A stretch of 64,000 nt of DNA from Thermococcus onnurineus NA1 (GTDB lineage: Archaea > Methanobacteriota_B > Thermococci > Thermococcales > Thermococcaceae). How positions within the stretch are numbered: the first letter of the stretch is position 1; each line of letters begins with the position of its first letter. Position numbers and translations under genes: made by a program. Below are positions 17,029 through 20,406 of this stretch, in pieces. The stretch covers positions 62,001-126,000 of the forward strand of contig NC_011529.1 in NCBI RefSeq assembly GCF_000018365.1, written 5' to 3'. The notes under the pieces are model-generated. The model did not search any database. It was given only the letters and a program-made list of their open reading frames with translations, and had not been told where the DNA came from.

Positions 17029-17868
17029 GTGTCCTCCGTGGAAGGCCGGGTCAAGAAGGTTGGTGCTGTCTTCTTGCTTGCCCTGCTGTTGAGTCTTCAA
17101 TTGATTGCCGCACCACAAGCTGCGGCAATGACCGCCAACAACTCAAGCGTGACCTTCCGTAGGGCCGTGGTTGCCTGGTATGATGAGAAGGGTAGGCTTC
17201 AGATGAACGTGACCTGGGTGAACAGGACCATAGACTTCGCGAACTTGACTAACACTTCCTGCCCCTGCCACAACTCAAGTTCCTGCACTTCCAACTTGAC
17301 CACCAATGTAAACGTCTCGGTGGTCACGCTTTACAGAATGACGGAAAAGCACGAGCAGTTGTTGTTCTTTGGGATAACCATTTACAACGAGACTTTCAAC
17401 TACACCATGTATGTCCTCGTTTACAAGGCTGAGAGGAGTCAGTACAACCTAGGTGTTATTACAAGAATAATACACATAAACGGCACTAACTTGTTCACAA
17501 CAATGGTGAATATCGGACCGAGGGATAGTAAGGCCCAACCTGTAGCGGATATAGTGTTCTTCGCGAACAAAACCCCTCTTGCTGACCACTATAGATTTGT
17601 TGGCAAAGTGCTGAATGAAATCAGGAAGAACGATACCACAAGCTGGATCTGGAATAAAGTCAGGATTGAGCTTAACGATTTAGCTAAGAAAACTGAGAGG
17701 GATTTAGGAGACTATAATATAGTAGGACACAGCACTTTCATAATAATGGATGATACATGTACATCAAGTTGTGGGCTCATATGTTCATTGCCTACAACCC
17801 CTTTCTTCTGTGAAGAATATGTGTGCGCTCCAGCTTGTACCGGAGCTTGTGAGGTGGTATGTGGATGA
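17029..17868 (+). CDS. Secreted protein with eight-cysteine C-terminal domain (halocin C8-like layout)
   Basis: The 279-residue product has an N-terminal signal peptide (hydrophobic core about residues 10-28, cut probably after AAPQAAA) and a middle region with about fourteen N-glycosylation sequons (NVT, NRT, NLT, NYT and others). The last ~40 residues carry eight cysteines spaced C-X3-C-X3-C-X8-C-X4-C-X3-C-X3-C-X3-C, ending CG. I do not recognise an exact family. The layout, a secreted precursor of about 280 residues with a compact Cys-rich C-terminus, recalls halocin C8 of haloarchaea, whose precursor carries the antimicrobial peptide at the C-terminus and an immunity part before it; this is inference from layout. 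The start is GTG 17029, with GTG 17038 as alternative. The stop overlaps the start of a multi-pass membrane protein. Confidence 0.6.
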   Translation: MSSVEGRVKKVGAVFLLALLLSLQLIAAPQAAAMTANNSSVTFRRAVVAWYDEKGRLQMNVTWVNRTIDFANLTNTSCPCHNSSSCTSNLTTNVNVSVVTLYRMTEKHEQLLFFGITIYNETFNYTMYVLVYKAERSQYNLGVITRIIHINGTNLFTTMVNIGPRDSKAQPVADIVFFANKTPLADHYRFVGKVLNEIRKNDTTSWIWNKVRIELNDLAKKTERDLGDYNIVGHSTFIIMDDTCTSSCGLICSLPTTPFFCEEYVCAPACTGACEVVCG

Positions 17869-18839
17869 GAGGGAAGAAACATTTTCTCCTTCTAAACTTT
17901 TTTATTGGGGCAGTTTTTCTGGCAATCCTGTTCCACTACGCCCTTTCGCTTTCATTGGGGGAAAGCTTCTTATTTGCAGTCATCTTGTCACTTCTCTACA
18001 CCTCTGCGCATATTTTCTGGAAAAGACCGGATAAACAGCAGAGAGAGTCTCAATTTTTAAAATCTCCAAGTATCGGACTTATACTCTTTGTTCTGATTTC
18101 GTTTGGGTTCGGAGTGCTTTTATTTGAGCTTATCCACGCGGCGTTTGCAAAACCGGGCACCTCTTTCATCCCTCTCGCCAAAGTGCTCGGCGTTTTGTTC
18201 ATAATCGGCGCGTCTGTGCTGTTCCTCGTGGCAATGCTACATGAGAGAGGTAAGAAAACACCCGAAAAAGTCGTCTATTCCTGGCGAAACTTCCTCAAGG
18301 AACTTTCAACGTCCCTCCTCGTGTTCACAATTGCATACTCCTCCGGGGTGAGTTTGGAAAAGAGCGTCTCGATGGCGCTTTACGTTTTTGTTTTGGCCAG
18401 CTGGTACTATTCCATGATGGCTCACAAGTATGTGATATCCGAGCGGATACTTAAAATCAGGGCCGTTGTAATTTTTGTGGCGGTCACTTCCGGGCTGTAC
18501 CTGTTCGTAATTGACAACATAGTCCTAAGTGGGCTGATTGGGGCACTTTTCGCGGTTGTGTCTGAAAAAGACTACAAGATAACCAGGAAACTTGTGGCAG
18601 AGGAGTTGCTGGGGAAGAAATACGCCGAAAGCGGAGCCTGGCGCCTGTTTTACGGCATCTTTTATGGATTTGGGGCGATGGTAGCTTTGATGATAGTCAC
18701 TGGGGATTACAGTGCCTCGTTTATCAGGGAATCTTTGTTAACGGTGTTCAGGCTCCTGTACATATTTACGACGATTTTCCTCCCCTTCGGGACGCTTGGC
18801 GGGTGGTTAAGGTTGAAGATTCATGGTGGAAAAACTTAA
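17865..18839 (+). CDS. Multi-pass membrane protein coupled to the Cys-rich secreted protein
   Basis: The 324-residue product has about ten hydrophobic segments (starting near residues 7, 32, 58, 90, 133, 160, 185, 207, 250 and 285) and no soluble domain of size, so it is an integral membrane protein, perhaps a transporter, protease or immunity factor. I do not recognise the family. ATG 17865 is preferred to ATG 17859 because GAGGTGGT lies seven bases upstream; it overlaps the upstream stop as ATGA, so the two proteins are made together. The HIS-containing loop MMAHKY and the REXL motifs are not enough to name an activity. Confidence 0.6.
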   Translation: MRGKKHFLLLNFFIGAVFLAILFHYALSLSLGESFLFAVILSLLYTSAHIFWKRPDKQQRESQFLKSPSIGLILFVLISFGFGVLLFELIHAAFAKPGTSFIPLAKVLGVLFIIGASVLFLVAMLHERGKKTPEKVVYSWRNFLKELSTSLLVFTIAYSSGVSLEKSVSMALYVFVLASWYYSMMAHKYVISERILKIRAVVIFVAVTSGLYLFVIDNIVLSGLIGALFAVVSEKDYKITRKLVAEELLGKKYAESGAWRLFYGIFYGFGAMVALMIVTGDYSASFIRESLLTVFRLLYIFTTIFLPFGTLGGWLRLKIHGGKT

Positions 18840-19046: not shown

Positions 19047-19330
19047 GTGTTCGGGGGTTAATTGCTCTGGTGGCATTTGATAATCATGGCAGTCGAGGGC
19101 ATCCTTGGGGGTATCAGGAAAAGTTGCAATAGAACGGCACAAACATGTTATTCGGCCGGTTATCTGAGTGTGATGGCTATAACAATGCTCGGGGCATTAT
19201 TAGCTTGGGAATCGTTAGTAACGACTCTCACTGGGTTTGGTTAGCACCGGTATTTGCGAAGTCCGCGTTATTTGCGGCTATATGCGGAACTTTAATGGAT
19301 AGGAAGTCTGTGCATATCGCGAGTAATTAG
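19047..19330 (+). pseudogene. Apparent remnant of a small membrane protein gene
   Basis: From GTG 19,047 the frame stops at TAA 19,059, then stays open in the same frame to TAG 19,244 (with ATG 19,086), giving a piece with GGIRKSCNRTAQTCYSAGYL and a hydrophobic segment (ITMLGALLAWESLV). A second frame, open from about 19,145 to 19,330, continues with a hydrophobic, protein-like stretch (WLAPVFAKSALFAAICGTL). Joined by a frameshift near 19,240 the parts would form one protein of about 90 residues with two membrane segments. I read this as a decayed gene, but ATG 19,086-19,244 could be a real 52-residue peptide with two cysteines. No family recognised. Confidence 0.45.
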
Positions 19331-19380
19331 GGATTGATTAAGGCTTATTCACAAACGCCGACATCCGTAAGGTGATACCC

Positions 19381-19683
19381 ATGCCTACTATAGAGGGGTA
19401 TCTCTTGGGAGCGGTGCTCGGAATTTCCCTCTGGTTGCTGGTCTCAGGACTGGTTGAGTACTTTAGGAGGCCTAAGACGTTCTCATTCGTGCTCAGGAAG
19501 AGCGACCTCAAGACTGTTTCGGAGGATGAGCTCCCCGAGGATGTGGAGAAATACCGGCGAGAACTTGAGGAGAAGTTGGTTTCAAAAATCATGGAGGAAA
19601 GAAGGAAACGCGCATTGTTAAAGCTCAAGCTTTCCGTGGTTGGGATCATAATCGTTATGTCGGCGTTGCTCATAATAGGGTGA
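19381..19683 (+). CDS. Small membrane protein with two terminal membrane segments
   Basis: The 100-residue product has a hydrophobic segment near each end (about residues 5-24 and 80-99) and a charged, probably helical middle (about 28-78, with PEDVEKYRRELEEKLV). ATG 19,381 follows GGTGAT by four bases; GTG 19,372 is in the site. No recognised family. It belongs to a run of small membrane protein genes on the same strand, and its stop overlaps a GTG that opens the next, damaged frame. Confidence 0.55.
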   Translation: MPTIEGYLLGAVLGISLWLLVSGLVEYFRRPKTFSFVLRKSDLKTVSEDELPEDVEKYRRELEEKLVSKIMEERRKRALLKLKLSVVGIIIVMSALLIIG

Positions 19684-19902
19684 AAAGACCTGGGGGTGGT
19701 TACATAGACAAAATACTCGAGGGGGAGCTTTTGAGGACGTTCCTAATATTCGTCTTTTTGTTTTTGGCTATGGATAATGGTGGATGAACTCGAACTCTGA
19801 CCTTCCGGCCGGTCAAGATGATTATATTCCCTCGTCCTGAGCCTGCTAACACTACCACCAAGGCTGTGGATTAGGAGGAAACTTGGGGATGAGCTTTCAT
19901 GA
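19680..19902 (+). pseudogene. Frameshifted remnant of a small membrane protein gene
   Basis: A GTG at 19,680 overlaps the upstream stop and opens a 35-codon frame (VKRPGGGYIDKILEGELLRTF followed by a hydrophobic run) ending at TGA 19,785. Protein-like sequence then continues in a second frame (DLPAGQDDYIP) and in a third (LSLLTLPPRLWIRRKLGDELS) whose TGA overlaps the ATG of the next gene as ATGA. The coupled stop and start at both ends, but broken middle, suggest a gene of about 70 codons with at least two frameshifts. Confidence 0.45.
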
Positions 19903-20201
19903 AAGCGGTGTGGATGGTTCCCGTACCCTTCATGGTTGTTGTAGTGGTCTATGGTCTGTATGGGGGCAAAGCATTGCCGCTGGTCATTGGATTAGTGTCA
20001 TTATTTCTCTACGTGCTCAGCCTTAGGGGAGAAGGGGAATCAATAAAGCTGACGGGCCTCGTTGCGATGTTCTCATCGATATTCGCACTGTGGGAGAACG
20101 TGCTTAAGTATCTGGCAATAATCGGCGTTGCCCTGTTGATTCTCCTTGAACTCTTCGTAGAAATGAGGAAAAAAGAAAACAGAGCTCGTTTGAGGAGGTG
20201 A
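19899..20201 (+). CDS. Small membrane protein, three to four membrane segments
   Basis: The 100-residue product is almost wholly hydrophobic up to residue 88 (segments near 3-20, 25-43, 50-65 and 68-87) and ends with a basic tail (MRKKENRARLRR). No family recognised. It starts at ATG 19,899 overlapping the remnant before it and is followed after four bases by another small membrane protein, which places it in one transcription unit with its neighbours. Confidence 0.55.
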   Translation: MKAVWMVPVPFMVVVVVYGLYGGKALPLVIGLVSLFLYVLSLRGEGESIKLTGLVAMFSSIFALWENVLKYLAIIGVALLILLELFVEMRKKENRARLRR

Positions 20202-20205
20202 TCCC

Positions 20206-20406
20206 ATGGTTAACTCCAAAGGAGGGTTTGTGCTATGGATATTGCTAGGAGCAATTGGTGGAGCTATTGGATTATTGGCATTATCAAAGGGCATGGAACA
20301 AGAATTTCCTATGGTGGTCTATCTAGGATTCATTGTGGGGTGGAGTGTCGTGGGGTTTGGGCTATCTAGGGCTGGAAAGCTATTCGGCTCTTCATCGAGG
20401 TCATGA
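20206..20406 (+). CDS. Small membrane protein, two membrane segments
   Basis: The 66-residue product has two hydrophobic segments (about residues 8-27 and 36-54) joined by KGMEQEFPM, the second ending in a glycine-rich part GWSVVGFGLSRAGK. ATG 20,206 lies after GAGGTGATCCC, a good ribosome binding site. No recognised family. It is the last gene of the small-membrane-protein run; the 115 bases that follow contain the promoter of the methyltransferase. Confidence 0.55.
   Translation: MVNSKGGFVLWILLGAIGGAIGLLALSKGMEQEFPMVVYLGFIVGWSVVGFGLSRAGKLFGSSSRS

Follow-up and report, generated by a model that had tools for sequence, protein, structure and literature searches.

A secreted precursor with a cysteine-rich C-terminus and its membrane-protein partner: probable members of a polymorphic archaeocin system of Thermococcales

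The stretch of DNA analysed here (64,000 nucleotides, hereafter the window) is part of a genome of 1,847,607 bp and contains a gene for a secreted, cysteine-rich precursor followed by a gene for a membrane protein. The initial annotation had reported an overlap between these two genes, which is correct: the second reading frame (17859-18839) begins before the first (17029-17868) ends. The following features were assigned to the locus:

17029-17868, forward strand: precursor open reading frame, 279 amino acids, as described earlier
17038..17127, forward strand: predicted signal peptide of the precursor, MEGRVKKVGAVFLLALLLSLQLIAAPQAAA, assigned from the sequence and from an ATG at the equivalent position in the homologous locus L115
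17128..17718, forward strand: sequon-rich conserved pro-domain (scaffold 1), common to all homologues (14-row alignment A1)
17719..17868, forward strand: T5-type C-terminal cassette with an internal deletion that leaves 8 of 20 cysteines, according to DNA alignment with the relatives in G005, G058 and G036; deletion junction near 17805
17859..18839, forward strand: I2 membrane protein, 326 amino acids, predicted immunity protein for T5 cassettes, which it adjoins in four of four loci
17380..18807, forward strand: recombination block, ∼97% identical to G005, comprising the second half of the pro-domain, the cassette and the partner gene, from sliding identity and dS
19062..19330, forward strand: frameshifted remnant of an I11-type immunity gene (E 1.5e-10)
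19372..19683, forward strand: orphan I9-type gene (E 4e-26), which in L065 and L087 is paired with a halocin C8-type cassette
19704..19832, forward strand: short remnant resembling the start of an I4-type immunity gene (tblastn E 1e-5)
19899..20201, forward strand: orphan I6-type gene, the partner of T6 cassettes (E 1e-28)
20206..20406, forward strand: 66-amino-acid membrane gene, homologous to the ORF downstream of I7 in L069 (E 7e-21), probably a further immunity-type gene

Based on the alignment of the homologues, translation of the precursor probably starts at the GTG codon at 17038, three codons after 17029, where L115 carries an ATG; the annotated start at 17029 is also possible. The description of a secreted precursor with a signal peptide and 14 N-X-S/T sequons was borne out, the number of sequons being higher than in all of 5000 shuffled sequences (3.5 expected, maximum 10). 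The eight C-terminal cysteines (residues 244, 248, 252, 261, 266, 270, 274 and 278) show exactly the spacing given before, C-X3-C-X3-C-X8-C-X4-C-X3-C-X3-C-X3-C. A twin-arginine (RR) motif is absent from the signal sequence of the precursor (MEGRVKKVGAVFLL...). Searches of Pfam, NCBIfam, PADLOC and PDB sequences assigned neither the precursor nor the partner protein to a family, and the pro-domain has no Pfam or NCBIfam family match. AlphaFold models computed from few input sequences had pLDDT values of 42.6 and 41.6 and were not of usable quality.

The regular cysteine pattern does not represent the intact peptide module that had been proposed. DNA alignment with three relatives revealed that the T5 cassette of the window lacks 195 bp, in frame. 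In the relatives, this cassette comprises ∼115 residues with 20 cysteines; the missing segment corresponds to 65 residues that contain 12 of these cysteines and the hydrophobic core. The deletion lowers the hydrophobic maximum of the cassette from 2.02 to 1.01, the lowest value of all cassettes (1.3-2.3 in every other one). Outside the deletion, the tail and the head are 86-94% identical to those of G005 with few changes, the reading frame stays open, and the number of remaining cysteines is even. As judged from these alignments, the eight-cysteine pattern is real sequence but a deletion product. We also considered that the short tail could be ancestral and the long form the result of an insertion; this idea was dropped because three relatives of different divergence all carry the long form. 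Since the module appears to be an internally deleted remnant, a functional 4 kDa peptide from the window copy is doubtful, and this precursor copy is probably inactive. An assembly or cloning error is a possible source of the 195-bp deletion.

The I2 partner gene, by contrast with the damaged cassette, has been kept. Its dN/dS ratio is 0.20-0.32, also between the orphan copies that are found intact in other genomes, and by this measure I2 is intact and under purifying selection. Ten membrane segments had been proposed for the partner. Hydropathy gives eight in the window protein and seven to nine in its relatives, whereas a low-confidence model contains ten long helices, so that ten segments are plausible but unproven.

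The comparison with G005 also bears on the origin of the pair. The dS between the window and G005 is only 0.05-0.09 within the recombination block; for the first half of the pro-domain it is 0.80, and three housekeeping genes have values of 0.41-3.2. In G005 the pair occupies a different chromosomal site, and the first pro-domain half diverges much more strongly than the block. The simplest reading of these values is a joint transfer, by recombination, of the cassette, the partner gene and the latter half of the pro-domain, with the deletion occurring afterwards. Downstream of I2, three further immunity-like genes, the intact I9 and I6 genes and the 66-amino-acid membrane gene, are found together with the I11 and I4 remnants. 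The only other precursor copy of the genome (L059:4655-5722, G000:C1:1764789; a T0 cassette with an I0 partner) is missing the first ∼50 residues, among them the signal peptide. Its upstream DNA resembles that of the window copy. Because the window cassette is internally deleted and L059 is damaged while the I2 partner and orphan immunity-type genes are kept, the strain is probably an immune non-producer.

Of the 94 Thermococcales genomes, 29 encode relatives of the precursor, often with several copies each; the 21 further genomes of the phylum that were searched encode none. These homologues share an N-terminal part of ∼230 residues, but their C-termini are wholly different. Clustering of these C-terminal cassettes resulted in ten types (T0-T9), most of which are unrelated by profile comparison; clear links exist only between T1a and T1b and between T2 and T9, and one between T6 and T7 is possible. 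The cassettes are hydrophobic and ∼70-130 residues long; 44 of 45 have an even number of cysteines, and nearly all contain a membrane-like hydrophobic stretch. No Pfam domain beyond noise, and hence no enzymatic toxin domain, was found in the cassettes scanned.

A gene with hydrophobic segments begins between -60 and +160 bp from the precursor stop codon in 44 of 45 loci (background: 85 of 440, 19%). The homologues in other Thermococcales look like precursors of cysteine-rich tail peptides paired to a downstream membrane gene, as described for the window. The partners fall into 15 mutually unrelated membrane families, and no family is paired with two cassette types. Among 128 pairs of loci with the same cassette, 99 agree in the partner family, compared with a mean of 13.4 and a maximum of 41 in 5000 permutations that treat the loci as independent. 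The shortfall from 128 is due to T1 and T2, each of which is split into subtypes with a partner of their own. The same types of cassette/partner pair occur at two to four distinct chromosomal sites, and relatedness alone therefore does not explain the pairing.

About 18 of the 50 precursor copies are visibly disrupted by our reading; such damage is often seen in toxin genes when selection is relaxed. Stops, frameshifts or truncations were seen in L072, L073, L084, L085, L086, L088, L094, L101, L102, L119 and L120. Behind the T0 precursors of L060, L070, L075, L093, L095 and L117, the I0-type partner is present as two to four tandem copies, which suggests duplication and divergence of immunity genes. 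Near the third chromosomal site (L065, L077, L097, L105, L110, L113), pairs of small VapB-like and PIN-domain (VapC-like) genes and a gene for an AAA-type ATPase lie beside orphan partners. Searches of plasmid, phage and viral collections had no matches and gave no indication that known mobile elements carry these genes.

A resemblance to the precursor of halocin C8, which is 283 amino acids long (PMC11509114), had been suggested for the window protein. This resemblance holds for its siblings on the same scaffold, but not for the window cassette itself. A scan of eight cassettes with the halocin C8 profile (NCBIfam TIGR04449) gave clear matches for three of the five T2 and T9 cassettes (E 9e-12, 1e-11 and 5e-9), while a fourth was just over the cut-off (24.7 bits) and the fifth just under it. 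All four matches over the cut-off lie on scaffold 1 (E 9e-12 to 3.5e-5). Nine halocin C8 matches were found when 115 genomes from the phylum were searched, and six of these lie on scaffold 1. The HMM search of the window protein, proposed as a check of its C-terminal module, yielded no TIGR04449 match, nor did its genome, and profile comparison of the T5 type with T2 gave a probability of 10%. The 14 pro-domains searched against NCBIfam had zero halocin matches. We considered the pro-domain as an immunity part in analogy to HalI and set this idea aside, the pro-domain being constant while the cassettes vary. A part common to all cassettes is an improbable candidate for the specific immunity region envisaged in the initial annotation. 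The partner had been regarded as an exporter, protease or immunity protein. Of these roles, immunity fits better, since the downstream gene is cassette-specific; exporter and protease do so less. On sequence grounds, the downstream gene is thus a better candidate for immunity than the N-terminal part, and for this function than for export or proteolysis.

A second secreted scaffold, which has a CPCC motif and whose gene adjoins one for a methylthioadenosine-phosphorylase-like protein, was identified in 12 of 94 Thermococcales genomes. It is present at L143, L144 and L145 and at L146-L157, with its own set of C-terminal cysteine-rich cassettes and partners. Apart from the signal peptide, the pro-domains of scaffolds 1 and 2 are not related (scaffold comparison probability 4%). 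T2-like cassettes are found on the second scaffold (E 8e-18 and 2e-16), and the gene behind them is homologous to the I10 partner (E about 5e-7). The occurrence of the T2/I10 pair on two unrelated scaffolds argues that the pair moves as a unit between carriers.

We consider it likely from these comparisons that the window pair is part of a polymorphic archaeocin system in Thermococcales, in which a swappable toxin-like peptide is encoded together with a cognate immunity gene. A constant, signal-peptide-bearing and probably N-glycosylated pro-domain would carry the interchangeable C-terminal peptide and be exported by the general secretory route. The peptide may then be released outside the cell by cleavage, as with halocin C8, a precedent for this precursor logic (PMC11509114); such maturation has a precedent in a haloarchaeal precursor that an extracellular protease activates (PMC12893001). 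A point against this reading is that no dedicated protease or exporter gene is linked to the pair. Disulfides would keep the released peptide folded, and it would presumably act on membranes of related competitors, while the downstream membrane protein, as its strict pairing suggests, would shield the producer from that particular peptide. New toxin-immunity pairs would arrive by recombination inside the conserved pro-domain, as seen at the window locus, where the cassette seems to have later lost 65 residues including the hydrophobic core, with the partner and orphan genes being kept. For the order as a whole, we favor with somewhat less confidence a broader reading: at least two unrelated secreted pro-domains would act as interchangeable carriers, and the disulfide-rich, membrane-active peptides that they carry would form at least ten families, each with a dedicated membrane immunity gene, the units being swapped between species and sites by pro-domain recombination and orphan immunity genes being stockpiled.

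Three other explanations have to be weighed against this one. The window copy could still be a working short antimicrobial, as proposed in the initial annotation, with its ∼39-residue, eight-cysteine tail as a functional disulfide peptide of ∼4 kDa. The in-frame deletion, the even cysteine count, the unbroken frame and the high identity of the rest to G005 would all agree with this. What makes it unlikely in our view is the nature of the deleted part, which held 12 of the 20 cysteines and the hydrophobic segments and left a hydropathy maximum below that of all other cassettes; moreover, the other copy of the genome is also damaged.

The remaining two explanations concern the function of the system as a whole, for which we prefer the toxin-immunity reading. 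Strict pairing of a variable secreted peptide with a membrane partner would look alike if the peptide were a polymorphic signal, such as a pheromone or kin marker, and the partner its cognate receptor. Yet the halocin C8 antimicrobial domain is matched by several cassettes, the partners belong to mutually unrelated families, those scanned contain no kinase or regulator domain, and orphan partners are widespread without a peptide, all of which renders a signaling role improbable. We give slightly less credit still to variable surface or structural glycoproteins without toxic function, akin to VARTIG, the variable Ig-domain module of Thermococcales (PMC8416519). The precursors do broadly resemble VARTIG in being secreted and rich in sequons, in their hypervariable C-terminus and in the membrane genes beside them, but Pfam revealed no Ig-like domain, no other family was matched, the C-terminal DNNxxxGG motif, searched as D[ND]NxxxG[GD], is absent from the window precursor, and halocin C8 cassettes are found on the same scaffold.

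In the open literature that we searched, this system is not described and no characterised archaeocin is reported from Thermococcales; some of the proteins may already be listed as predicted archaeocins by Makarova et al. 2019 (mBio). If our interpretation is true, about a dozen paired cassettes on one scaffold would represent many heat-stable disulfide peptides with matched resistance genes, in hosts for which genetic tools exist. Archaea would then diversify membrane-active peptides by the constant-head, variable-tail strategy of bacterial polymorphic toxins.

Among known systems, the halocin C8 precursor (ProC8) resembles the window protein in being secreted, in its similar length and in its cysteine-rich C-terminal peptide. 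It differs in that immunity resides in its N-terminal HalI part, whereas here it apparently resides in a separate, cassette-specific gene; in addition, the window cassette lacks a TIGR04449 match, the pro-domain a halocin family match in NCBIfam and the signal sequence a twin arginine, and the C-terminus of scaffold 1 is interchangeable. HmHapP is likewise a secreted archaeal precursor that needs extracellular proteolysis, but its active part is N-terminal and helical (PMC12893001). VARTIG is found in the same order and also combines a secreted protein whose C-terminus recombines with membrane genes that are specific to each subfamily (PMC8416519); the proteins are unrelated, those described here being without Ig domains and without the C-terminal DNNxxxGG motif and bearing toxin-like peptides instead. 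Polymorphic toxin systems of bacteria and archaea use nucleases or other enzymes as toxins and a large contact-dependent protein for delivery, whereas we find small cysteine-rich, probably membrane-active peptides on a short secreted pro-domain. Their organization is nonetheless recognizable here: a constant N-terminal delivery part is followed by unrelated C-terminal toxin modules with a cassette-specific immunity partner downstream, modules such as T2/I10 occur on both scaffolds 1 and 2, and orphan immunity genes and remnants accompany them, as in the stack of the window and the orphan I2 genes.
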